IMG/VR virus record: IMGVR_UViG_3300003886_000038 | Coordinates: 1 to 28,179 of that record | Length of the DNA: 28,179 nt | Strand: one strand, 5' to 3' | DNA from: a virus | Made by a program: the position numbers and the translations under genes | Notes under the pieces: generated by a model | What the model was told of the DNA's origin: nothing | Database searches by the model: none | The model's input: only the letters and a program-made list of their open reading frames with translations | Shown: positions 8,249-21,123 of the stretch, piece after piece | How positions within the stretch are numbered: position 1 is the first letter of the stretch | How the letters are laid out: each line of letters starts with the position of its first letter

Positions 8249-8874
8249 CTAGACACCCTCCGCCGCCATCATGGCGCGCGACGCCTTCGCGTCCTCCATC
8301 GCACCCTCGCGTCGCAGTGCAGCCCCGATGCGCTCCTCTGCGATGAGATGCATCCGCAACATGAACGTATCCCAGTCCGGGGCGGGGCTCGCATAGTAGA
8401 AGTCGTGGACCGCCATCACGGCCTCGGGGTTGCCCGCGAGGACTTCCGGGTGGCTGATGTCGATCGCTTTGTCTGCCCATTGCGAGAGGACTTGTAGGTC
8501 TCCACCGCTGTGACGAAAGGGCGCATCGCGGACTCGCCGTACAGGTCGAAGAGCTTGTCCACGATGGGCTTCACCGTCGTATCCCAGTCGTACATGCCCG
8601 ACTGCAACGATGAGAGGTCGTGCGGTGCCGGCTCGCCGTCATCGTCCTGCACGTCCCAGCCGAGCAGCCCGTCACGCAGGAATAGCAGGCCCAGGCGCGT
8701 GATGTAGTCGGCCGTCCCCTTCGTCTCCGAGAGGATGGCCTGCGCCTCCATGCCCGCCTGTGGCGTCAGGCGAGGCCGCAGCTCGGCGTGGTCGCCATCC
8801 TCGTGAGGCTTGCCCGGACACTCGCAATCGCCGATGCGGAGCCTCTCGGATGCGACCGAGAGGACCCGGCTCAC
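8249..8874 (-). CDS. Tail assembly chaperone, long frameshifted form (G-T type)
   Basis: The long form begins as the short chaperone at GTG 8874, then shifts back one base at CCCTTTC (8521-8515) and continues in the -1 frame to TAG 8249. The region after the shift reads QVLSQWADKAIDI, then HPEVLAG, VHDFYYASPAPDWDTF and EERIGAALRREG, clearly coding-like although it has no start codon of its own. In lambda and many siphophages this G/G-T pair keeps the tape measure soluble and brings tube subunits during tail assembly. Location between tail tube and tape measure matches exactly. Ribosomal slippage is inferred from the heptamer and the open downstream frame. Confidence 0.85.
8416..8874 (-). CDS. 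Tail assembly chaperone, short form (G type, 152 aa)
   Basis: The start is GTG 8874, overlapping the tail-tube stop as GTGA; an in-frame reading from 9027 would lie inside the tube gene. The core (AELRPRLTPQAGMEAQAILSE and similar) ends in a folded segment through VETYKSS, after which the zero-frame tail is short and basic (RSTSATRKSSRATPRP), the appearance of an out-of-frame extension. CPG near C18-C20 gives a small Cys motif. This product, made by ribosomes that do not slip, is the abundant partner of the long form in tail assembly. Confidence 0.85.
   Translation of the reverse strand: MSRVLSVASERLRIGDCECPGKPHEDGDHAELRPRLTPQAGMEAQAILSETKGTADYITRLGLLFLRDGLLGWDVQDDDGEPAPHDLSSLQSGMYDWDTTVKPIVDKLFDLYGESAMRPFVTAVETYKSSRNGQTKRSTSATRKSSRATPRP
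8515..8521 (-). other. -1 ribosomal frameshift heptamer CCCTTTC
   Basis: Read on the minus strand, the zero-frame codons CGC CCT TTC contain C CCT TTC, an XXXYYYZ slippery heptamer. Slipping back one base gives CCC TTT C and opens the -1 frame to TAG 8249. The site lies 35 codons before the zero-frame stop, in the only gene pair of a siphophage where such a shift is expected. I did not identify a downstream stimulatory structure. Confidence 0.8.
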
Positions 8875-9929
8875 GGCAGCGCAGCCAGCGTGTTGACGAC
8901 CGAGGAGCGGTAGGCATACGCCAGCCCGGCGTCGTACCTGCCCTTCATCTCCAGCTCCACGATATCGTTGCCGCCGACCTCGGCCTCGGAGCGCGTGCGC
9001 CACGTCCCGCTGAACCGCTGGTCCCACGAGTACGGCACGCCCGACTCCGCCTCCTGTGTCGATTGCGTCAGCAGCTTGACGTACCGCTCCGTCGGGGTCG
9101 CGTTGAGCCAGTCCACCGTCTCGGAATCGAGCGCCTGCACGATGGCCGCCGTCTTGGCGAACCGGAAGGTAGCGGTGATGGTGCGCCCTGCGAGCCCCCA
9201 GCCGTTGACCTGGAAGCGGCTGTTGGAACCGTTGGCGAACTGCTTGCGATCCACCTCGTTCTCGATGCTCAGGGTGAAGCCATGCAGCGCGTTCGAGATG
9301 AGCGTGCCGCCGATGCCGCCAGAGGTGTCGTCGACGTAGACCGCCGAGTCGGCACCGAACACCTGCGGCAGGTTCGAGCTGACCTGTAGCCCCGTGGTCG
9401 GGGTGACATGCGGATTGACGCCCGAGAAGCGCCAGTTGGCCGAGCCGGTGAGCGGGCCCAGCTCCTCGTCGAACCCGAGGTCGAAGCTCTCCACGATGCC
9501 TCCGTAGAGCTGCATCCCGTCCTCCAGCGCAGAGTCGGTCAGCGTCGCGTCATCGGAGAACTCGTCGGTGAAGAGGTCAAGCGTGGTCGGTGACAGCGAC
9601 AGGCTCTCGTGCGCCCATGTGTAGCTGCCGCCGCCGCCTGCGGAGCCAGAGACACCGCCGCGCAGCCCGGCCGCCATGATGAGCGGGATATCGTCGAACG
9701 TCAGCGGGTTGATGGTGAACGGCAGCGCGACGTTTAGCCACGTCCGGTATGCCGGCAGCGTCGGGTCGATGGAGCCTGTATCGACCTCTTCCTGGTCCGT
9801 CCACTGCGGGTCGATATCGGGCACGCCACGCCAGCCCACGCGCCGGGTCGCAGCGACCGCCGTGTTGACTACCGACTGCTTGCCGAACTGATGCTTGCGA
9901 AACCTGGAGTAGCCGACCAGCGGGCTCAT
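8871..9929 (-). CDS. Major tail tube protein (352 aa)
   Basis: The gene lies between the tail terminator and the frameshifted chaperones, the standard place for the tube subunit. Residues 1-35 (GYSRFRKHQFGKQSVVNTAVAAT) resemble tube proteins that begin with an extended arm. Beta-rich segments follow with a Gly-rich loop (SGSAGGGGSY), and pairs such as LYGGIVESFDLGF and GANW-like strands fit the tube beta-barrel. Its 352 residues are longer than the ~150-250 common in tube proteins, so an added surface domain is possible; I cannot place its boundary. AGGTGAG lies upstream of ATG 9929. Confidence 0.8.
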   Translation of the reverse strand: MSPLVGYSRFRKHQFGKQSVVNTAVAATRRVGWRGVPDIDPQWTDQEEVDTGSIDPTLPAYRTWLNVALPFTINPLTFDDIPLIMAAGLRGGVSGSAGGGGSYTWAHESLSLSPTTLDLFTDEFSDDATLTDSALEDGMQLYGGIVESFDLGFDEELGPLTGSANWRFSGVNPHVTPTTGLQVSSNLPQVFGADSAVYVDDTSGGIGGTLISNALHGFTLSIENEVDRKQFANGSNSRFQVNGWGLAGRTITATFRFAKTAAIVQALDSETVDWLNATPTERYVKLLTQSTQEAESGVPYSWDQRFSGTWRTRSEAEVGGNDIVELEMKGRYDAGLAYAYRSSVVNTLAALP

Positions 9930-10453: not shown

Positions 10454-10906
10454 TCACGCCGCGCGCCACGCTTTGCCGGTATGGATGTTCGAGACGGTCG
10501 CCGGGCTCACTCCGAACCGTACGGCGGTATGACGCTGCGCGACCCCAGCAGAACAGAGACGCCGGATCTCGACCGCTTCCTTGGCAGTCAGCTTGGCGCT
10601 GCCATTGTCCTCGCCGAGATGAGCCTTATATCGAGCCCGCCCGCGCTCCATCATGTCCCGTGCATTCTGGGTCGCATCGCCGAGATACAAGTGCGCGGGA
10701 CGGACGCAGGGTTTGACGTCGCATCGATGTAGGACCATGCGCCCATCCGGGATAGGCCCGGCCACCGTTTCATAGGCGAACCGATGAGCCGTCATGAATG
10801 GCCCGCCCGTCACCTTGAAGTTGCCATAGCCGTGTGACCCGATGGCGCCTTGCCATAGCCAACACCCGAGCCCCTTGCGGACCTTTGACCAGAAGCGTTC
10901 ATCCAT
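10454..10906 (-). CDS. Free-standing HNH endonuclease with C-terminal helix-turn-helix
   Basis: This 150-residue protein has an HNH_3-type core: AHRFAYE (H41), then LHRCDVKPCVRPAHLYLG (H60, C62, C67, H72), and QNARDM (N81). The C-terminal 45 residues (KLTAKEAVEIRRLCSAGVAQ then VSPATVSNIHTGKAW) form a helix-turn-helix such as those that direct homing endonucleases to their site. It would cut DNA at a specific sequence, possibly an allele of the flanking tail region lacking the insert. It sits between two conserved structural genes, where it has no structural role. Its ATG overlaps the previous stop as TGATG, while the downstream junction is a 79-base gap with a hairpin. Confidence 0.88.
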   Translation of the reverse strand: MDERFWSKVRKGLGCWLWQGAIGSHGYGNFKVTGGPFMTAHRFAYETVAGPIPDGRMVLHRCDVKPCVRPAHLYLGDATQNARDMMERGRARYKAHLGEDNGSAKLTAKEAVEIRRLCSAGVAQRHTAVRFGVSPATVSNIHTGKAWRAA

Positions 10907-11463: not shown

Positions 11464-11696
11464 CAGGCACACCACCTAGCGAAACGGATATCACTCGCCT
11501 TGAGCGCTTCGCGTGCGAGTTGCGCGGCCTCTTCGTCATGGAAAACGCGGTCGGTCTGGTGAGCAGCTCCGGTGCCCATGGCGATGTGCTCAAGCACTTG
11601 GATATACAGTCTGTCCTCCAATGAGTGCGCCACTTCACTGTCGCCGTTCACCGTAGCGATGGTAGCGACGAGGTCGCGTACCTCTTCGATGGTCAT
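11463..11696 (-). CDS. Small protein between head-tail connector and gp10-like genes (77 aa)
   Basis: ATG 11696 overlaps the connector stop as ATGA, and the stop overlaps the next ATG as TGATG, so the gene is firmly placed. The product is mostly helical (IEEVRDLVATIATVNGDSEVA, RLYIQVLEHIAMGTG, EEAAQLAREALKASDIRFA) and ends in RWCA. In many HK97-type phages the slot after the first connector holds a stopper/second head-closure protein, usually ~100 residues and beta-rich. This one is shorter and helical, so I do not assign that role. Confidence 0.65.
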   Translation of the reverse strand: MTIEEVRDLVATIATVNGDSEVAHSLEDRLYIQVLEHIAMGTGAAHQTDRVFHDEEAAQLAREALKASDIRFARWCA

Positions 11697-12346
11697 ACCG
11701 CCACCATCTGCGAGCCGAGCGTCCAGTCGCGCATGAAGTCCTGCACCTCGATGGGCAGGTTGCTGTAGTCGCGGAACGTGCCGTCTGCGGATACCGATGA
11801 GCCCGAGAGGATGGAGTCCGGGCGCACGGTGTAGAAGCCCGCCAACGCCTTGCACGCCATCAGCAGCTCGTCCGGCGCCAGCAGCCAGCCCCAGTCACCC
11901 AGGATGGTGAGGTCGTTCGGTGTGCTGGCCCACGAGCGGCCCGCCTCGATCCCGGAATCGAGCCCCCTGTCCCACCAGTCCGACTGATGCAGGTATGACG
12001 GACCATCGAGCCGCGATTGGTACGTTCGGAACTGGATGGCCGTGAATATCGTCTGCTCGTGCCGGTCCGGCATCAGGTAGTAGCCGCTGTCCGCCGTCAG
12101 GGCCGAGTCGCTCTTGGTCACCGTCGTGGCGACGCGGAGGTCCGGGATGCTGAGCTGCGCGCGGCCGTGCGTCGTGAACGTCTTGGTCACGCCTGCCTGG
12201 ACCTCGAACTGCCGGGCACTCTCGCGCTCGAGGAAGCTCGATGCTGCGCGGATGTTGGATTCGAGTCGCGCCGTCGCATAGCGCTTGTCGGTCAGCGCCG
12301 TATCGAGGTAGTCCCGTAGCTCACCCGCCGAGATGAACGCTGGCAA
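11693..12346 (-). CDS. Head-tail connector (gp6-like adaptor, 217 aa)
   Basis: The N-terminus (ELRDYLDTALTDKRYATARL, ASSFLERESARQFEV) matches the helical adaptor family that docks under the portal (HK97 gp6/SPP1 gp15 type). The middle is beta-rich (TTHGRAQLSIPDLRVATTVT), and the C-terminal helices (DELLMACKALAGFYTVRPDS, EVQDFMRDWTLGSQMV) are also typical. At 217 residues it is longer than the smallest adaptors, with an inserted beta region. The start is TTG 12346, with GGAG seven bases upstream. It overlaps the preceding glycosyltransferase by 26 bases, so the cassette reads straight into the structural operon. Confidence 0.8.
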   Translation of the reverse strand: MPAFISAGELRDYLDTALTDKRYATARLESNIRAASSFLERESARQFEVQAGVTKTFTTHGRAQLSIPDLRVATTVTKSDSALTADSGYYLMPDRHEQTIFTAIQFRTYQSRLDGPSYLHQSDWWDRGLDSGIEAGRSWASTPNDLTILGDWGWLLAPDELLMACKALAGFYTVRPDSILSGSSVSADGTFRDYSNLPIEVQDFMRDWTLGSQMVAV

Positions 12347-13661
12347 GGGCAGTCTCCGCCTTCGGCTTGCCCGCCGTGTCTGAGTCTACTCCCTCGATGA
12401 CATCACGGAACTGCTCCGCTGCCCGTACCCATGAGAAGTGCTCGCGGATATGCGCCGGGCCCAGCGCGCCGAGCGACTGTGCCCGCGAGGGGTGCGCCAG
12501 CATCCAGTCCACCGCCTCACCGAACTTGCGCTCGTCCACGCGCGCCCAGTAATGGTCGTACTCGTTGTCCGTCAGCGCCGCGATGGGCACCACCTTGCCG
12601 GCCGGTCCGATGACCTCCGGCACCGCGCTGTAGTCCATCCCCACCGCCGGCGTGCCACAGGCGAGCGCCTCCGCGATGGTGAGCCCGAAGCCCTCCGCCG
12701 ACGTGCTCACGTAGACGTCCGCCGCGTTGTACAGGATGTTGAGCACGTTGCGAGGCACCGCGCCCATGCCGGTCAGCATGATGCGGTCCCGTATCTCGGG
12801 CGGGTACTTGCTCATGCTGTCCCCGATGTTGCCGCCCTGGTCCACCGGCCGGCAGTGCAGCACCAGCAGTCGCCGCGCATCACGCGCCAGCACGGGCGCC
12901 ATAGCGCGGAGCAGACTGTTGTAGTTCTTGCGCGGCATGTGGCGGTCCGTGCGCACTGCCCAGCGCTCGCGCGGGTCGCGGCCGAAGAAGCGTTTGGCAT
13001 CCTCCTTGGAGCGGATGACGTGCAGCTTGTCCTTCTCGCGCACCGTGATGGGTCGTGCACCCGTGGCGGGCCAGAAGTCATCGCTGTCGACGCCGTGATA
13101 GACCAGCGGCGGCACGTAGCCCACGACCTCACCGATGGCAGCTTGCCCGAAGCGTGACATCGCGACCGGCTTGACGAAGCTCCACATCTCGGCCCAGCGC
13201 GGCGGCAGGTCGACGCCCTCGATAGGGCAGTAATGGAAGCTGCGGATGCTCTGGAACGCCTCGCGGTATGGCCACACCGACATGCGCACCTGCGCGAAGT
13301 CGCCCAGCAGCACCGCCGCGTCCGGCTTCCAGTCGCCCCACGGAGTCTTGTCCGCCATCAGGACGTCCCCACCGCCCTCGCCCCGGAGGATGCGCGGGAT
13401 GAACTCCGCCGCACCCGTCACGCCCGTCTTGTCGCCTGCCTCGAAGGCCATCGCGACCTGGGCCAGCAGGTAGCGCGTATCGATGGTGCGTGATGCGAAC
13501 GGCTCGGGCAGCTCGCCGTCTATCTCGTTCTGGGAGACGAAGCGCACGTCCAGCCCGAGGTCCAGCAGCGCGCGCCCGAGGTCCAGCGTGACCGTACCGA
13601 ATCCGGTGCTTGACAAATCTCCAAAGAACACAAGCCTTGTCAATGTACCGCCTTCGGTCAC
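12321..13661 (-). CDS. Glycosyltransferase, GT-B fold, GT4-like (about 446 aa)
   Basis: The C-terminal half carries the GT4 donor-binding signature: ADVYVSTSAEGFGL followed by TIAEALACGTPAVGMDYSAVPE, preceded by NRHMPRK-like VRTDRHMPRKN, LLVLHCRP and DRIMLTGMG. The N-terminus has a Rossmann-type start (TRLVFFGDLSSTGFGTVTLD). It should move a sugar from a nucleotide donor to an acceptor that the sequence does not reveal. The stated GTG start overlaps the previous stop as GTGA; TTG 13643, with AGGCGG just upstream, is an equally possible start six codons later. Frames open to 13763 lie inside the preceding gene. This is the last enzyme of the cassette and overlaps the connector gene. Confidence 0.9.
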   Translation of the reverse strand: MTEGGTLTRLVFFGDLSSTGFGTVTLDLGRALLDLGLDVRFVSQNEIDGELPEPFASRTIDTRYLLAQVAMAFEAGDKTGVTGAAEFIPRILRGEGGGDVLMADKTPWGDWKPDAAVLLGDFAQVRMSVWPYREAFQSIRSFHYCPIEGVDLPPRWAEMWSFVKPVAMSRFGQAAIGEVVGYVPPLVYHGVDSDDFWPATGARPITVREKDKLHVIRSKEDAKRFFGRDPRERWAVRTDRHMPRKNYNSLLRAMAPVLARDARRLLVLHCRPVDQGGNIGDSMSKYPPEIRDRIMLTGMGAVPRNVLNILYNAADVYVSTSAEGFGLTIAEALACGTPAVGMDYSAVPEVIGPAGKVVPIAALTDNEYDHYWARVDERKFGEAVDWMLAHPSRAQSLGALGPAHIREHFSWVRAAEQFRDVIEGVDSDTAGKPKAETALASVHLGG

Positions 13662-13873
13662 AGGTCGGACGAGAAGCCATAGGATGCCGAAGCGCCATGT
13701 GCCGCGTGCCACCCATCGGCGGCTGGGCCGATGACGTGAACGACCTCCTCGTCCAGCGTCCACGTTCTGCCTTGACTGTCGATGGCGGCGTACTGGCCGT
13801 CCTCGTACGAGATGAGTACGACGTACCTGTCTCCGGGCGGGGTGCGTAGAGTCTCAGCTAGTAGCGGGACCAT
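13658..13873 (-). CDS. Small beta-rich protein inside the glycosyltransferase cassette (71 aa)
   Basis: ATG 13873 follows GGAGGG by seven bases and overlaps the preceding glycosyltransferase stop as TGATG; its own stop overlaps the next gene as GTGA. The product has alternating strands (DRYVVLISYEDGQYAAIDSQ, GRTWTLDEEVVHVIGPA), as in a small beta-barrel or SH3-like fold, then a Gly/Ala/Ser tail. No catalytic motif is visible. Being wedged between two glycosyltransferases with overlaps at both ends suggests it works with them, perhaps as an accessory subunit, but the family is not recognised. Confidence 0.7.
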   Translation of the reverse strand: MVPLLAETLRTPPGDRYVVLISYEDGQYAAIDSQGRTWTLDEEVVHVIGPAADGWHAAHGASASYGFSSDL

Positions 13874-14955
13874 CACAGTCCCTCCAGCATCTGACGGATA
13901 GCCTCGGCCTCGGTGGGGAAGTCCACCAGCCCATCGAAGCGCGTATGACTCGCGCGGCACATGCGGTCGTACAGCTCGTCGTCGTCGCGCAGTGTGCGCA
14001 GGATGGTGACCAGCTCGTGCCGGTCGTGCGCCTCGACGTCGATGCTCGTGACGCCCTCCTCCCAGAGCGGGCCTGCCAGCTTGCCGATGTAATAGCGCGG
14101 CACGCCCACGACGGGCTTGCCGATGGAGAACCAGTTGTGGATGACATGGCCGAAGCCATCGGACCAGTACTTGCCGTGCCACGCGGTCCGACTCGCCTGC
14201 ATGGCTGCCGCGACCGCAGGAGTGCTGCCGACGTCGCCAGCCGCCCACTCGTCCTCTGGCGCAGATCCGTAGGCGCCGTAGCACTGGAACCGGAACTCGG
14301 CGCGCAGCTCGTCCGCCAGCGAGGCGAACTGCTGATACGGCTCGCGGTTCTCGGGGAAGCAGTTGACGAACGACGCCACGGTGTCACGAGCGCTCTCGGG
14401 CGGCACCTTCGGCCCGAAGAGGTCCGTATCAAACTCCTGGTGATAGATGACCGTGGGCGTGCCCATGTGCGTCGCCTGACGCGCCCATGTGTTCGGGCTG
14501 GTCAACCCCGGCAGCGTCGAGCTGGACAGGATGAACTCGGCCAGATCCCAGCGGCTCACCTGCGCCTCGTTGCCCACCTGCACCCCGAACTTCGCGCCTG
14601 TATCCTTCGCGACCACGGCAAAGCCTAGGTCATTGGCAGGCAGAGACGAGATGACGTAGTCGAAGCGCATGTCTCGCGCCTGCGCAAGCGTCAGCCCCCT
14701 GTGCGTGCGCCACGGGTGCCGCGGGTCCTGTCGCCGCGTGATGCCGTCAGGCTCCACGTAGGCATCGGCCCAGACGCCCTCCAGGTACTGCTTCGCCACC
14801 GCGTCACCGTGCCACTCCTTCTCGAACTGCCAGACGTCCTCGGTGAACCAATCCATCGACTCAGGAAAAAACACCTCCCAGCCGTATCGGTCCTCGAAGA
14901 GCAGCAGCAGACTCTCAGCTAGAGCGTGATGGTGATAATCGGTCAGGACTCTCAC
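13873..14955 (-). CDS. Putative glycosyltransferase, GT-B type (360 aa)
   Basis: The start is GTG 14955, overlapping the membrane-protein stop as GTGA. The N-terminus reads RVLTDYHHHALAESLLLLFE, a type of start seen in phage and bacterial proteins annotated as glycosyltransferases. The C-terminal half has the general GT-B pattern: SDGFGHVIHNWFSIGKPVVGV followed by an acidic DVEAHDRHELVTIL segment and a closing helix. The EX7E motif of GT4 is not clear, so family placement is weaker than for its neighbours. The gene lies between two other cassette genes, supporting a shared glycan pathway, perhaps adding a different sugar. Confidence 0.7.
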   Translation of the reverse strand: MRVLTDYHHHALAESLLLLFEDRYGWEVFFPESMDWFTEDVWQFEKEWHGDAVAKQYLEGVWADAYVEPDGITRRQDPRHPWRTHRGLTLAQARDMRFDYVISSLPANDLGFAVVAKDTGAKFGVQVGNEAQVSRWDLAEFILSSSTLPGLTSPNTWARQATHMGTPTVIYHQEFDTDLFGPKVPPESARDTVASFVNCFPENREPYQQFASLADELRAEFRFQCYGAYGSAPEDEWAAGDVGSTPAVAAAMQASRTAWHGKYWSDGFGHVIHNWFSIGKPVVGVPRYYIGKLAGPLWEEGVTSIDVEAHDRHELVTILRTLRDDDELYDRMCRASHTRFDGLVDFPTEAEAIRQMLEGL

Positions 14956-15191
14956 TTCTGCACCTCACTCTCAGCTCCTCGTGGCGGGATGTAGTCTCGC
15001 ACCCTGCAACGAGCGTCTTTCAGCCCTCGTGCCATGTCTGCCGTCGAGGTTCCTTCATCGACCATGGCCACCACTAGTTGCTTGCACTCGTTGGCCCTAC
15101 GCTCGGCGCCGACTCCCACGGCGAGTCCGACGAACAGGCTCAAGGCGATGATGAGAACGACGCCCACGATGGCCGGAGCCGTCGCTTTCAT
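14952..15191 (-). CDS. Membrane-anchored small protein in the glycosyltransferase cassette (79 aa)
   Basis: The ATG at 15191 overlaps the previous glycosyltransferase stop as ATGA, and the stop overlaps the next GTG. Residues 6-28 are a clear transmembrane segment (PAIVGVVLIIALSLFVGLAV). A soluble part follows with C36, a helix (QLVVAMVDEGTSTADMARGL), C62 and RVRDYIPPRG; the two cysteines could form a disulfide if this part is outside the membrane. It may tether the glycosyltransferases or present an acceptor at the membrane. A signal-peptide-like start cannot be excluded. No family is recognised. Confidence 0.7.
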   Translation of the reverse strand: MKATAPAIVGVVLIIALSLFVGLAVGVGAERRANECKQLVVAMVDEGTSTADMARGLKDARCRVRDYIPPRGAESEVQK

Positions 15192-16276
15192 GCCTCCACC
15201 TCCAGCGCTGGCATATCCTCGGGGTCGGCCGGCACGTCGCCCCAGCGCTCATCGAGCACCGCGCCCCAAGCTGACTCGGCACGCACCCGCGACCACAGCG
15301 CCAGCGCCCGCCCACGGCTCACCTGCGACACCGCAGCGGCCGTCTCGGGGTCAGAGAGGATGCCTGACAGCATCTCGTTCGCCTCGGCCGGGCTGCTCGC
15401 CCACATCGGTGCCAGCAGATGCCCCTCGAACAGCTCCGGGCCATACGGCAGGATGCGCGACATCTCGGGCCCGATGGATACGACCGGGCAGCCCGTCATC
15501 ATCGTCTCTATCAGGCCCAGCGTGTACGAGGCCGGCTGCGTGCCCGTGTAGAGCACCGCGCGCGCCCTGCGCATCAGCGCCTTGAGCTGTGCCTCGGGCA
15601 CCTTGCCCAGCCCGCCCATCTGCTCGGTCTGCGGACCCACCAGCGTCACCGGCAGCCCACGCGTCGCCGCCTTCATCCAGTCGGTATGCACCCACATGGT
15701 GCGCTCCACCGGGTTCTGCGCCATCCACAGCACCGTCTCGTCCTCGCCCGTCCAGCCGCGCCACTCGGCCGGGTCCTTCCAGAACCTGACCATCGCGTCG
15801 GCGCCCGCATAGTTGGGGATATGGCGCTCAAGAGGCGAGTAGCGGACTATCTGCAATCCGTCCTTGACGTGCTCGGCCGCATTGTACTCGTTGGGATGCG
15901 CCGACTGCCCCACGGTGCGCCAGATGACACGCACGCCAGCCGCCATGAGCCTGTCCCACTGCGGCCACAGCCAGCGGTGCTCAAGGTGATGACAGATGAG
16001 CACGTCGGCCCACTCCAGCAGCTCGGGCGGCGTCAGTTGCTTCACGGTATCGAGCCGGTCCGGGTGCTCCTCGTCGGCCGGGATGGCGTCCACGATGGCC
16101 TTGAGGTCCGGGTGCCACGTCAGGCCCGTACGCTTGATGGCCGGGCGCATGTCGTCCAGCGGGTGCTCGGGGTCTATGTACGCTCCGGGTGAGAAGACCT
16201 TGTGCCCCAGTCCGGTGAGCAGGCGTACCTGGTCACTTTCCTCTATCGAGTGGGCGATGAAGAGGAGGATATTCAC
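15188..16276 (-). CDS. Glycosyltransferase, GT-B fold, GT4/GT1-like (362 aa)
   Basis: The start is GTG 16276, overlapping the previous stop as GTGA. The N-terminus is Rossmann-like (NILLFIAHSIEESDQVRLLTGLG), and WADVLICHHLEHRWLW (89-104) resembles the acceptor-domain segment where GT-B enzymes carry a strand ending in a His pair. The donor-side signature is at 240-268: AVLYTGTQPASYTLG, then LIETMMTGCPVVSIG, equivalent to the E-x-G-x-x-x-x-E region. It should transfer a sugar from an activated donor. With the other two transferases and the methyltransferase it could build a methylated oligosaccharide. Confidence 0.85.
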   Translation of the reverse strand: MNILLFIAHSIEESDQVRLLTGLGHKVFSPGAYIDPEHPLDDMRPAIKRTGLTWHPDLKAIVDAIPADEEHPDRLDTVKQLTPPELLEWADVLICHHLEHRWLWPQWDRLMAAGVRVIWRTVGQSAHPNEYNAAEHVKDGLQIVRYSPLERHIPNYAGADAMVRFWKDPAEWRGWTGEDETVLWMAQNPVERTMWVHTDWMKAATRGLPVTLVGPQTEQMGGLGKVPEAQLKALMRRARAVLYTGTQPASYTLGLIETMMTGCPVVSIGPEMSRILPYGPELFEGHLLAPMWASSPAEANEMLSGILSDPETAAAVSQVSRGRALALWSRVRAESAWGAVLDERWGDVPADPEDMPALEVEA

Positions 16277-16479
16277 GGCAGGCGCGTCCAGAAATGCCGC
16301 TTGTCTATCTCGATAGAATCAGTCGGCCGCCCCGCATCCGCTTGCTCGACCAAGTAGCGTGCGGCCACGTCGATGTGATACGCCACCAGCAGCCCCCGGC
16401 ACCATGCCGCCACCCGCTCCACCGCCTCCGGGTCCGGCTTCGCCTGCTCCTTGAGTCGCCGCGTTGCTACAGTCGTCAT
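16273..16479 (-). CDS. Small hypothetical protein in the glycosyltransferase cassette (68 aa)
   Basis: ATG 16479 has GGAGG upstream (nine bases from the start) and follows the methyltransferase by 19 bases; the stop overlaps the next gene as GTGA. The product is helical and charged (TRRLKEQAKPDPEAVERVAAW, LLVAYHIDVAARYLVEQAD), with no membrane segment and one cysteine. I do not recognise a family. Coupling to the downstream glycosyltransferase suggests co-expression. Confidence 0.65.
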   Translation of the reverse strand: MTTVATRRLKEQAKPDPEAVERVAAWCRGLLVAYHIDVAARYLVEQADAGRPTDSIEIDKRHFWTRLP

Positions 16480-16498
16480 TGCCCGCCTCCTGTCCTGA

Positions 16499-17194
16499 CT
16501 ACAGCGGCTCTGCCCTGAACAGGCCCAGCCCGTCCTCGCCTGCGAACGTCACCCGGTGCGTCTTGCCCAAGTGCGCGTAGAGCTTGCCGCGTGCTGAATG
16601 GTACTCCCCGACGATGAGCCCGATACGTTCGAGCTTCGCGCCGATGAGGTTCGACTCCGCTCCCTCGGCATCTATCTTGAGCACCGAGATATCACCGAGA
16701 CGCGCCACCAGCTTGGCGACACTGACCGCTGGCGCCTTCGTCGTCTCCTGCGCCTTGATGCCGTCCGCCATCCGCTGGTTGCCGATGTAGCGGTGCATGG
16801 CTGCGGCGTCCTGGAGCTCCGGGTCGCGCGTGCGGTTCACGTAGTCCCAGTAGATGGTCACCGTCTTGCCCTTGCCCAGCGCCTCGGCCGAGAGGATGCA
16901 GCGCGTCTCCAGCCCATTGGAGTGGAGGTTCATCGCCAGCAGCTCGCGGTTCGGTGCCAGTGGCTCCAGCGCCAGTACGTGCAGCTCCGAGTTATCGAGC
17001 AGCGCCGCTACCGACCACGCGCCGATGTGCGCGCCGATGTCGAGCCCTGCACCGGCCAGCTTCTCGCCACGCATCCCGTACTCGTCCTCATCGAGGATGC
17101 TGCGCGCCACCATGGCATCGTTCGTGCCTGGCCGGCAGTGGATGATGGCCTCGTTGCCTCGCGGTGTCCGGAACGTGAGTCGCTGCGTCTCCAT
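16499..17194 (-). CDS. FkbM-family SAM-dependent methyltransferase (231 aa)
   Basis: The SAM-binding motif LDIGAHIGAWS (51-61), the acidic E77 in VLALEPLAPN, and the family-typical VLKIDAEGAESNLIG (171-185) with EYH (197-199) identify an FkbM-type methyltransferase. Members often O-methylate sugars or polyketide hydroxyls, so a sugar hydroxyl built by the neighbouring transferases is a natural substrate; that is inference. The start ATG 17194 has AGGAGG four bases upstream. An alternative ATG 17236 gives 14 more residues and overlaps the previous stop as ATGA, but has no ribosome binding site. The C-terminal part matches usual family length. Confidence 0.88.
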   Translation of the reverse strand: METQRLTFRTPRGNEAIIHCRPGTNDAMVARSILDEDEYGMRGEKLAGAGLDIGAHIGAWSVAALLDNSELHVLALEPLAPNRELLAMNLHSNGLETRCILSAEALGKGKTVTIYWDYVNRTRDPELQDAAAMHRYIGNQRMADGIKAQETTKAPAVSVAKLVARLGDISVLKIDAEGAESNLIGAKLERIGLIVGEYHSARGKLYAHLGKTHRVTFAGEDGLGLFRAEPL

Positions 17195-17232
17195 CGAGCC
17201 TCCTGCTGCGTCTGACCAGTCTACGCCCTTGC

Positions 17233-17388
17233 TCATCGCTTCGACACCTGCCGATAGCGTTCCACCTCCGTGGGCGTGACGTGCCAGTCTCGCCCGCGCT
17301 TGGTCGCCTTGAGCCGGCCGGCGTGTATCTGCTGGCGCAGCGTGTCCGGCGTGATGGCGAGCCGCCGCGCCGCTTCGGTGAGTGTCAT
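17233..17388 (-). CDS. Small helix-turn-helix DNA-binding protein (51 aa, excisionase/MerR-like)
   Basis: ATG 17388 encodes 51 residues of an excisionase-type winged helix: LTEAARRLAITPDTLRQQI, then HAGRLKATKRGRDWHVT, then EVERYRQVSKR. The helix-turn-helix followed by a short GR-x-W-x-V wing is the standard pattern of small phage and plasmid DNA-binding proteins. It lies seven bases after the ParB-like gene and overlaps the frame of the longer methyltransferase reading as ATGA. It is a candidate to bind the palindrome at 17762-17775 and control the cassette; alternatively it is an orphan excisionase. No integrase is in the window. Confidence 0.8.
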   Translation of the reverse strand: MTLTEAARRLAITPDTLRQQIHAGRLKATKRGRDWHVTPTEVERYRQVSKR

Positions 17389-17395
17389 ATCAAGC

Positions 17396-17746
17396 CTAGT
17401 GGAGGTCGATCCCGTACTGCTCGCGGATGTCTGTCGGCAGTGCGCCCATCAGCTCGACGAGGTCGGTATCGCCGAAGGCTGGCGAGCCGTGCTCGAAGTG
17501 CAGGGCTTCGAAGTCGAGCCCAGCCTCGGCGAACACGTCTGCGATCTCGATCGTCGGGATCTCGTTCTCGATGCCAAGTCGGCAGGCGGCGGCGTAGCGA
17601 TGTGTGCCAGTGATGAGGTACGAGTCGTCCCACACGACCAGGGCTGCACCGACCCAGCCATCACGCTCGATGGATGTCATGAGAGTCGAGACCTTGGCCT
17701 CGTCCCGGACCTCGTGCATCGTGGTCAGTGTCGTGGTGTTGTCCAT
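17396..17746 (-). CDS. ParB/Srx-like N-terminal-domain protein (116 aa)
   Basis: The segment VSTLMTSIERDGWVGAALVV, followed by YLITGTHRYAAACRLG and PTIEI, matches the ParB/sulfiredoxin fold, where G-x-H-R-x-x-A contacts a nucleotide. The C-terminal part (FEALHFEHGSPAFGDTDLVEL, PTDIREQYGIDL) is not recognised. ParB-type domains may bind CTP, cut DNA, or act as kinases, so the activity cannot be named. It is the first gene of the cassette, directly after a strong promoter; the predicted transcription start coincides with its ATG (17746), so the message is probably leaderless. It may be a regulator or part of the modification pathway. The sequence is relatively rich in GATC compared with the rest of the window. 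Confidence 0.75.
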   Translation of the reverse strand: MDNTTTLTTMHEVRDEAKVSTLMTSIERDGWVGAALVVWDDSYLITGTHRYAAACRLGIENEIPTIEIADVFAEAGLDFEALHFEHGSPAFGDTDLVELMGALPTDIREQYGIDLH

Positions 17747-17752
17747 GAGTAG

Positions 17753-17793
17753 ACTATAACACTACGCTAGCGTAGGTGTCAACCCCTTATATC
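17753..17793 (-). promoter_or_regulatory. Promoter of the glycosylation cassette
   Basis: On the minus strand TTGACA (17782-17777, perfect -35), an 18-base spacer and TATAGT (17758-17753) form a near-consensus sigma-70 promoter. The -10 ends six bases before ATG 17746, so transcription should begin at or next to the A of the start codon, a leaderless message. A GATATAAGGGG block precedes the -35 and is shared with the promoter at 3119-3158. Lying in the 114-base gap after the capsid gene, it can run the cassette independently of the late operon. Confidence 0.8.
17762..17775. promoter_or_regulatory. Palindromic operator within the cassette promoter
   Basis: CTACGCTAGCGTAG is a perfect 14-base palindrome lying entirely inside the spacer between the -35 and -10. 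A repressor dimer bound here would block RNA polymerase. The binding protein is unknown; candidates are the small helix-turn-helix protein or ParB-like protein encoded immediately downstream, or a phage repressor outside the window. Confidence 0.7.
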
Positions 17794-17804
17794 CGGGCAG
17801 ACGA

Positions 17805-17838
17805 AGAGGCCGGGTGCCTCGATGGCGGCCCGGCCCCT
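17805..17838 (-). terminator. GC-rich hairpin after the capsid gene, possible terminator
   Basis: Minus-strand AGGGGCCGGG (17838-17829) pairs with CCCGGCCTCT (17814-17805) over ten positions (nine Watson-Crick and one G-U) with a 14-base loop, starting 23 bases after the capsid stop. A U-tract does not follow, so termination would be partial or factor-dependent. It could also stabilise the 3' end of an abundant capsid message. Confidence 0.5.
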
Positions 17839-17860
17839 GCGCTCGATGAGGAGGTATCGA

Positions 17861-19330
17861 CTAGGGAACGAAGTCGTTGACGTCCTGGAAGGCGCCAGCG
17901 AGGATAGCGGGCCGGGCGTCGAAGCCGAGCTCCATCTCTCCGCGGAAGCCCACCGTGTTGGTGTCCCACCGCGTCCCGGCGATATCAGAACTATCGACGC
18001 GATAGTCCTCGCCGATGTAAAGCTTGGCCGCCTTGAAATCACCCACCACCATGCGGTCGCTCGTGATGGTCGTATCGGGGAAGACGGGCAGACCCCAGAT
18101 GCGCAGGCCAGCGGGTCCACCCGCTACGCCCGGGCCCGGGTCGACCGTCGCCGGCCCCTGGCTGACACCAGCGATGTAGAAGCCGGCCGCATCCGCGCCC
18201 TGCGCCACCATCGTCCAGTAGTCCGCCGCGTTGACCAGCACGCCGTTCGCGACCCGGTTGCGGTTCGCGAGTGCGCCCGCCGCCTTGGCGATGGCCGTGG
18301 CCGCTGCACCTGCGATGGTGGCAGCCGCGGTGTGCGAGGTCCGATAGTCGTTCGTGGTCGTCGCCAGCCCGGTCAGCAGACCATAGGGCTCGCTCGAGCC
18401 TGAGCCGCTCAGGACGTAGTACGCCTCGCCCAGTGCGAACGCATGACCCAGCTCGGACAGCACGTCCTGCTCGGCCGCTCCCGCGCTCTGGCGCAGGAAC
18501 TGCTTGCCGATGTCATAGATGAGCGCCATCGTGTACATCGTCGCGGTGTAGGCGAGGTACGAGAGGTTGCGATTCTCCTTGGTCGCACCGAAGGCCGCGA
18601 TGGCCGCACGCGCCGGACCACCCGCACGGGTCGGCATATCGACCGCGAAGGACGACACGCCCGTCACCGTATTCATGAGCGTCCTGAACGGATGCTCGTA
18701 CGCTGCCGGCTTCGACAGCGCGTCCACGATGGCGTTGGGGATGATGGCCTGCCCGGTCGCCGATGAGGTACCGAGTGTCGCCTTGACCGCGTAGCCGCCG
18801 TTGGGGTCGACCTCGACACGAGACTGACTGCCCGAGACGGCTGCCGTGTTCTTGACGGCTCCGCCCGGCCCCCACGGGTCCTCCCACTGGAGTCCCATCG
18901 CCTTGAGCCCCTGCTTGCCACGTCGCTGGTCCTCGGCATCGACCGAACGGGCCAGGTAGACATTGAGCAGGAAGTCACCGGCCTGCCCGGCAGCCTGTCC
19001 GGGTGAGCCGTCGATGATGCCGTTGCCGCCGATGGCCGCAGCCTTGGAGGGGTTGCGCACCGATGCCAGGAAGTCCTGCAGGTCCGCCTGTGCCTTGGTG
19101 GTCGCAGCCTCGCGCTCTGCGAGGTCGTGCGCCTCCACGAGCTTCTGGATGGCCTCGCCGTGCTCGGTCCGGGCCTTGTTCGCCTCGGTCCAGCGCGCGC
19201 CGTCCGACTCCTTCGACTCGGCCATGATGCTCACGGCCTCTTCGAGCTTCGCGGTCAGCGCTGCGACGTTCTCGCCGTAGTCTGAATGTGGGTCACCTGT
19301 GGTGGTGACGTGACCTTGTGCCGTTGACAC
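17861..19330 (-). CDS. Major capsid protein, HK97 fold (489 aa)
   Basis: The HK97-type capsid subunit with an N-terminal scaffolding-like arm: residues ~20-90 are a charged coiled coil (NVAALTAKLEEAVSIMAESKE, EAIQKLVEAHDLAERE), followed by a Gly-rich cleavage-type region (GGNGIIDGSPGQAAGQ, 101-116). The mature domain contains EHPFRTLMNTVTG, FAVDMPTRAGG, ALGEAYYVL-type helices, DYWTMVAQGADAAGFYI and GLPVFPDTTITSDRMVVGDF, a hallmark series for this family. The protease just upstream would trim the arm. The start is GTG 19330, with AAGGAG seven bases upstream. Long Ala-rich helix (ATIAGAAATAIAKAAGAL) is present. The C-terminal half ends in a short gap with a hairpin and the cassette promoter. 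Confidence 0.92.
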   Translation of the reverse strand: MSTAQGHVTTTGDPHSDYGENVAALTAKLEEAVSIMAESKESDGARWTEANKARTEHGEAIQKLVEAHDLAEREAATTKAQADLQDFLASVRNPSKAAAIGGNGIIDGSPGQAAGQAGDFLLNVYLARSVDAEDQRRGKQGLKAMGLQWEDPWGPGGAVKNTAAVSGSQSRVEVDPNGGYAVKATLGTSSATGQAIIPNAIVDALSKPAAYEHPFRTLMNTVTGVSSFAVDMPTRAGGPARAAIAAFGATKENRNLSYLAYTATMYTMALIYDIGKQFLRQSAGAAEQDVLSELGHAFALGEAYYVLSGSGSSEPYGLLTGLATTTNDYRTSHTAAATIAGAAATAIAKAAGALANRNRVANGVLVNAADYWTMVAQGADAAGFYIAGVSQGPATVDPGPGVAGGPAGLRIWGLPVFPDTTITSDRMVVGDFKAAKLYIGEDYRVDSSDIAGTRWDTNTVGFRGEMELGFDARPAILAGAFQDVNDFVP

Positions 19331-20358: not shown

Positions 20359-21123
20359 TCAGTCTCCGATGTTCGCTGCGACGCTGTAGGTGATGGAGTC
20401 GGCGTCCGCGTGGATGGGGACGACCTGGAACGTTCGCGGCAGGATGGCGTTGGCGACCGTGTTGGCAGCAGCAGTCAGGCCGCGCCCGATGCTCAGGACC
20501 GTGGTGCCGATGCCGGTGATGGCCGCAGAGGTCAGGATGGTGTAATACTGCCCGCTTAGGGCGTCCTTGCCCTTGACGGTGAAGACGACACTGGGCGTGG
20601 CCGAGATGGCCGTCACGTCGATGATGATGTCGACGGCCTCGCCGTTGTGGTTGGTGATATCGGCGTTGGCAGGGCTCGATGTCCGCGCTGCACTGGCGAG
20701 GATGGTGACTTCGGTGTTACCACGCTGACGGTCCCACGATGTCCCGTTGAAGTGCAACGGAGCAGTAGCCCAAGGGCCAGTATTGCCAACGAGTGTCCAC
20801 GGCTCGGTCAGCAATACATTTGATTTACCATCGGCACCAGCGCTTTGACCGCCGCCGACCATCAGCGCACCTTTCAACCCCCACAGTGCGTCGGTTCGGT
20901 CTCCGGACGCCACGGCAGCAGGCGCGGCGTTGGCGATGCCACCTATCTTGACGGGGTTGCCGCTGTCTACGGCATCGTGAGCCACGTCGCCGACCATGAC
21001 GGCATTACCTGATGCGTCAGCCTGCGCGGGTACCCACTGAGAGCCGTCCCACACCGCCACGTAGGAGGGGATACCAGAGTCGGACCCGGCCTCTGCGGTG
21101 CCTGACTTGACTAGCTCGGACAT
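20359..21123 (-). CDS. Putative head decoration or fibre-like structural protein (254 aa)
   Basis: Residues 1-90 contain repeated short beta elements common in phage virion surface proteins (SYVAVWDGSQWVPAQADASG, NPVKIGGIANAAPAAVASGD), which usually link a particle-bound arm to an outer domain. The C-terminal ~120 residues (AVDIIIDVTAISATPSVVFTV, GQYYTILTSAAITGIG, RTFQVVPIHADADSITYSV) form an Ig- or lectin-like beta sandwich. The gene lies within the head module, with GGAGAGG upstream of ATG 21123. A decoration protein exposed on the capsid, and therefore a candidate acceptor for the glycans, is plausible but not shown. Confidence 0.65.
   Translation of the reverse strand: MSELVKSGTAEAGSDSGIPSYVAVWDGSQWVPAQADASGNAVMVGDVAHDAVDSGNPVKIGGIANAAPAAVASGDRTDALWGLKGALMVGGGQSAGADGKSNVLLTEPWTLVGNTGPWATAPLHFNGTSWDRQRGNTEVTILASAARTSSPANADITNHNGEAVDIIIDVTAISATPSVVFTVKGKDALSGQYYTILTSAAITGIGTTVLSIGRGLTAAANTVANAILPRTFQVVPIHADADSITYSVAANIGD

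Follow-up and report, generated by a model that had tools for sequence, protein, structure and literature searches.

A putative virion-glycosylation island between the capsid and head-tail adaptor genes of an uncultured tailed-phage lineage

Genes between the capsid and the adaptor

The window analyzed here is the whole 28,179-base stretch of the IMG/VR virus record IMGVR_UViG_3300003886_000038, possibly a fragment, and harbors an island of glycosyltransferase (GT) and methyltransferase genes between the major capsid gene and the head-tail adaptor gene. The main genes of the window, including all genes of the island, are encoded on the minus strand, in the order of TerS, TerL, portal, two proteins of 254 and 93 residues, a protein at the protease position, capsid, island, adaptor, neck protein, HNH endonuclease, tail tube and tape measure. 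In island-less phages with a related terminase, the capsid and adaptor genes are adjacent or one gene apart, in agreement with an initial annotation of this DNA, which held them to be normally adjacent or nearly so. The gene content that it listed for the interval, namely a ParB-like gene, a helix-turn-helix (HTH) gene, an FkbM gene, three GT-B transferases and three small genes, was confirmed together with the gene positions (Table 1).

The G+C content at third codon positions (GC3) is 0.78-0.87 for the island genes measured and 0.70 for the gene of the 79-residue protein, the 71-residue gene being left out of this in-frame measure; as these values support coding, the listed genes were taken as coding. 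Six pairs of neighbors overlap by 1-4 bases (HTH/FkbM, 68-residue gene/GT2, GT2/79-residue gene, 79-residue gene/GT1b, GT1b/71-residue gene and 71-residue gene/GT3), and the adaptor start overlaps the end of GT3 by 26 bases. The most probable start of GT3 is at about 13661 or 13642; the start of the longest open reading frame (ORF) at 13763 is not favored.

The FkbM-family protein matches the Pfam model Methyltransf_21 with 37.7 bits against a gathering cut-off of 22.7, and its S-adenosylmethionine (SAM)-site and acidic motifs are invariant in an alignment of 23 sequences. GT2 and GT3 belong to the GT-B fold according to Pfam matches above the cut-offs. GT1b has no sequence-family match and was assigned by structure: its confident AlphaFold2 model adopts a GT-B/GT4 fold, with Z-scores of 20-23 over ~300 residues and matches that include TarM (Z 22.9) and MshA (Z 21.6). 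The count of three GT-B transferases is therefore correct. The E-x7-E pair of GT3 (E332/E340) is invariant in 28 sequences, and the first glutamate of this pair is replaced in GT2 (alignment of 21 sequences). GT1b possesses three residues, D266, H270 and H273, that are invariant in 21 sequences.

Table 1. Features of the island and of related loci in the window.
Feature	Position	Strand	Evidence or remark
Major capsid protein (HK97 type)	17861..19330	-	phrog_10, E 2e-32; upstream border of the island, acceptor candidate
GC-rich hairpin immediately downstream of the capsid stop	17805..17838	-	z -2.0 in the window
Sigma-70-type promoter, TTGACA-18-TATAGT, palindrome CTACGCTAGCGTAG in spacer	17753..17782	-	motif match 11/12
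ParB-like N-terminal-domain protein	17396..17746	-	PHROG ParB/methyltransferase models, best E 9e-5
HTH_17/excisionase-like DNA-binding protein	17233..17388	-	Pfam HTH_17, 3e-10; phrog_1840, 5e-6
FkbM-family SAM methyltransferase	16499..17236	-	Methyltransf_21, 3e-9; exchangeable island gene
Small gene, 68 residues	16273..16479	-	unconserved
GT2, GT-B glycosyltransferase	15188..16276	-	Glyco_trans_1_2, 1e-6, above cut-off; exchangeable island gene
Small protein, 79 residues, one N-terminal hydrophobic/membrane segment	14952..15191	-	unconserved
GT1b, GT-B glycosyltransferase	13873..14955	-	AlphaFold2 model, pLDDT 92.5; exchangeable island gene
Small gene, 71 residues	13658..13873	-	unconserved
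GT3, GT4-type glycosyltransferase	12321..13661	-	Glyco_trans_1_4, 7e-13; phrog_2170, 3e-21; invariant island member
Head-tail adaptor, starts with TTG at 12346	11693..12346	-	phrog_442, 2e-9; downstream border
Major tail tube protein	8871..9929	-	AlphaFold2 model, pLDDT 84.3; best PDB match P74-26 tail tube, E 1e-13; second acceptor candidate
Protein of 254 residues, portal-protease slot	20359..21123	-	no family match

Conserved GT3 and exchangeable partners

Relatives were collected from IMG/VR by a capsid-motif search, which yielded 33 loci, and by a GT3-motif search, which gave 163 matches, of which 80 loci were retained. The loci are contigs from metagenomes, often fragmentary, and their ORFs come from a simple composition-based caller. 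Among the capsid-motif loci, GT3 lies between the capsid and the adaptor in each of the 23 distinct contigs on which both are visible. The adaptor directly follows GT3 in 74 of the 76 GT3-motif loci that extend at least 600 bases further downstream, and the stop of GT3 and the start of the adaptor overlap by 4 nucleotides in 17 of 24 loci. FkbM, GT2 and GT1b are also present in 16 of the 23 contigs, in some of which they are duplicated or reordered, and are missing from the other seven (L002, L003, L030, L032, L037, L040 and L041). In those of the seven that were read in detail, the slot contains unrelated sugar genes, which encode GT-A transferases, a nucleoside triphosphate (NTP) transferase, an epimerase/dehydratase, a hexapeptide acyltransferase and a GDSL hydrolase. 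Sugar genes are added in further members: a GDP-mannose 4,6-dehydratase in L022 and L023 (TIGR01472 above the cut-off in L023), a nucleoside diphosphate (NDP)-sugar dehydrogenase in L018, and further methyltransferases elsewhere. Judged from its distribution in these sequences, the FkbM-GT2-GT1b-GT3 set is no local insertion. None of the small proteins of 68, 79 and 71 residues has a homologue in any relative examined, and the earlier idea of accessory subunits is not supported as a conserved feature.

Comparison of pairwise distances in the 17 phages that possess all genes revealed that GT3 distances correlate with those of the capsid (rho 0.63) and of the adaptor (rho 0.69; Mantel p 0.001 for both), about as well as capsid and adaptor correlate with each other (0.53). 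In contrast, the correlations with the capsid are -0.08 for GT1b, 0.16 for GT2 and 0.15 for FkbM, none of them significant; pairwise identities are near 50%, where saturation is possible but affects all genes alike. In the capsid tree, L036 and L038, which are of the FkbM/GT2/GT1b type, group with L037, L040 and L041, which carry other sugar genes, with a support of 100/100. The content of the island has therefore changed within a group that retained GT3. GT3 is thus the core of the island, and FkbM, GT2 and GT1b are swapped parts.

The window DNA has no similarity to the cultured phages searched, in which a direct search with the capsid protein also gave no match. In the search for a host, profile search of genome contigs with GT3 returned cellular GT4s only, among the matches listed, and the profiles of GT1b and GT3 had no match in ~400 genomes each from the phyla of L112 (labelled Solirubrobacteraceae) and L075 (labelled Chloroflexi).

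Promoter, inserts and hairpin next to the island

The promoter upstream of the ParB-like gene is the sole match of at least 10/12 on either strand of the window. Its spacer contains one of the two perfect 14-bp palindromes of the window, CTACGCTAGCGTAG; a promoter spacer is a usual place of an operator. Transcription is predicted to start right at the ATG of the ParB-like gene, which probably makes the message leaderless. No promoter match of at least 10/12 was found between the capsid stop and GT3 in the relatives, neither the promoter-operator nor the ParB-like protein has a further copy or relative in IMG/VR, and most FkbM-bearing relatives have no more than a few hundred bases between the capsid stop and the beginning of the island. 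For these reasons, the promoter, ParB and HTH look like an insert private to this phage rather than the ancestral control of the cassette, and independent promotion, which had been proposed as a property of the cassette, is not supported. The lack of further copies in IMG/VR also led us to reject the promoter-operator and the ParB protein as reusable modules. Read-through from this two-gene insert, with its own promoter and palindromic operator-like site, may raise the expression of the island and the tail genes.

Other inserts were observed at and around the island. HNH genes lie within the islands of L021 and L024, and an HNH endonuclease gene (10454-10906) is inserted within the neck-tail region of the window. 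In four relatives, promoter-like sites have the stop codon of GT3 inside the TTGACA box (L006:9443, L007:5589, L010:1000 and L014:17462), and small genes follow these sites ahead of the adaptor. In L014, the interval from GT3 to the adaptor also holds a frame (17800-18500) that, as read by eye, resembles a C5 cytosine DNA methyltransferase. Downstream of its tail genes, the window carries RecT- and RecE-like recombination genes (371-2652).

The GC-rich hairpin after the capsid stop has a mean z of -2.7 across the lineage (32 loci including the window), compared to -1.2 to 0 after other genes. It is found in most relatives (about 20), with unrelated sequences. Because a U-run is mostly missing, a classical terminator was rejected. 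The hairpin may stabilize the capsid mRNA or damp downstream expression, as would suit enzymes required in smaller amounts than the capsid.

Proposed function and comparison with known systems

We consider it probable that FkbM-GT2-GT1b-GT3 constitutes a virion-glycosylation island of an uncultured tailed-phage lineage, which builds a short methylated sugar chain. Upon late expression, the cytosolic GT-B enzymes would use host nucleotide-sugars to build this chain on a structural protein of the virion; in some relatives, sugars would also be supplied by island-encoded dehydratases or dehydrogenases. GT3 probably performs the acceptor-linked step, the attachment of the first sugar; it is the sole invariant member, and its divergence follows that of the capsid. 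GT2, GT1b and FkbM would extend and cap the chain, with FkbM O-methylating a sugar, and their exchange between phages would thereby change the type of glycan. A methylated oligosaccharide on a virion protein, as first put forward in the initial annotation, remains the best reading of the cassette, without the independent promotion, the accessory subunits and the acceptor at 20359 that had been attached to it. More tentatively, the island might represent a serotype-like locus of a large uncultured lineage, in which a near-essential GT3 primes a virion protein and exchangeable sugar genes, including those for de novo nucleotide-sugar synthesis, allow close relatives to switch their particle glycans, making glycosylation a core rather than an accessory trait.

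The capsid and the tail tube co-occur with GT3 wherever the contig is long enough, and in our analysis the capsid protein and/or the tail tube appear the most likely acceptors, as in cluster O and Che8 mycobacteriophages; no acceptor motif was identified. The initial annotation had pointed, as one possibility, to the 254-residue protein at 20359, which has neither a family match nor a homologue in the relatives examined. It occupies a hypervariable portal-protease slot, the content of which differs among L004, L005, L006, L014, L019, L025, L026, L036 and L037, with occupants that are LamG-like, collagen-like, GDSL-like or β-rich as judged by eye. L002 and L003 retain GT3 but have nothing in this slot, and this protein was therefore excluded as a shared or universal acceptor.

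Several points weigh against virion glycosylation. From the observed gene content, folds, conservation, exchange and co-divergence, we infer the virion location of the glycan, the modified protein, the sugars, and the roles and order of the enzymes; a gene position inside a structural operon is not in itself proof that the target is structural. Profile comparison detected no homology of the island enzymes to those of mycobacteriophage Thibault, and FkbM, GT2 and GT1b found no tblastn match in the cultured phages searched. A conserved Ser/Thr-rich C-terminal tail that could be a shared glycan acceptor was seen on neither the capsid nor the tail tube protein, whereas the cultured precedents are reported to carry their glycans at C-termini. 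Moreover, GT1b lacks the canonical E-x7-E pair and reads D-x7-N in the window, where its putative donor site appears to be altered.

Among the alternatives, the enzymes might alter a wall or membrane glycan of the host surface late in infection, like serotype-conversion or receptor-masking genes, and so protect against superinfection or re-adsorption to debris. The GT-B relatives of GT1b indeed include wall, lipid and exopolysaccharide (EPS) transferases (TarM, PimA and HepE), GT3 has a weak NCBIfam similarity to an EPS GT, and the capsid-adaptor slot varies like O-antigen loci. However, the window island (17793-12321) contains no flippase, polyprenyl-phosphate GT or polytopic membrane protein, and thus differs from the serotype-conversion (gtr) clusters in lacking the flippase and the polytopic membrane GT; the only gene with a membrane segment, that of the 79-residue protein, is unconserved. 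Together with the fixed position in the head operon and the co-divergence of GT3 with the capsid and adaptor, this makes a host-surface role unlikely. Phage GTs acting on DNA are known, and T4 α-glucosyltransferase is among the GT-B matches of GT1b (Z 19.7), which would fit glycosylation and methylation of modified bases in phage DNA against restriction. Nevertheless, no base-hypermodification gene was found among the window genes scanned, in a record that may be a fragment, and several GTs with FkbM and sugar-nucleotide genes at the capsid-adaptor junction would be an unusual layout for DNA modification, a role that we regard as highly improbable. The junction may also simply be permissive, a hotspot for accidental cargo (morons) with no virion-specific function. 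The promoter-borne ParB/HTH insert, the HNH genes, the promoter-borne small genes after GT3 and the cytosine-DNA-methyltransferase-like stretch of L014 described above are in line with this explanation. It is nonetheless a poor candidate, considering that GT3 is present in every testable capsid-adaptor contig and co-diverges with the capsid, and that sugar genes also predominate among the replacements.

Experimental proof of virion glycosylation exists for a few mycobacteriophages, and the trait is regarded as accessory. The present lineage, in at least 80 metagenomic contigs, combines one GT that equals the capsid in conservation with partners that are exchanged. This pattern predicts diverse particle glycans in these environmental phages and offers a route to asking why they are made, be it for adsorption, particle stability or shielding; it also suggests a testable first step, the action of GT3 on the capsid or tail tube.

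Bacterial O-antigen and serotype loci have fixed flanks around an exchangeable core of sugar-biosynthesis genes. The window lineage likewise combines fixed flanks with exchangeable sugar genes; however, no flippase or polymerase was recognized in the island, and the putative target is the virus particle. The closest positional counterpart is found in cluster J mycobacteriophages (Omega, Thibault, LittleE and Courthouse), for which an insertion of 8-10 genes between the capsid and the head-tail connector was reported in 2013, its function being left open (PMC3706429). This insertion, seen also on the map of Thibault, has several GTs and SAM methyltransferases, with a content that varies between relatives. 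The window capsid protein is a distant homologue of that of Thibault (profile E 6e-15), whereas the profiles of GT3, GT2, GT1b and FkbM give no significant match to Thibault proteins, and no invariant GT before the adaptor is described for cluster J. The two islands would thus appear to work alike, with no evidence of common descent.

In cluster O mycobacteriophages, an O-methyltransferase and three GTs (Corndog gp35-gp38) are reported to modify the capsid and tail tube (PMC4351075, PMC11600133), and glycosylation of both proteins is described for cluster O and Che8-type mycobacteriophages (PMC11600133, PMC12619734, PMC11256854); PMC12619734 cites Freeman 2023 in this regard. The window island shares with Corndog the arrangement of one O-methyltransferase followed by three GTs within the virion operon, but the cassette of cluster O sits between portal and protease instead of between capsid and adaptor. 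The cultured Microcystis phage Mae-JY09 (PP395641), which has a related terminase, carries, between the capsid and the head-tail adaptor, an NAD-dependent epimerase gene and a GT4 gene that is a distant homologue of GT3 (profile E 2e-20). It differs in having a scaffold-type capsid module and no FkbM, GT2 or GT1b, and its GT does not adjoin the adaptor. Since cluster J and Mae-JY09 display GT genes at the same site, the gene layout and location are already known; what is new is that one GT is invariant, that nucleotide-sugar genes are exchangeable and that the island is present throughout the lineage.

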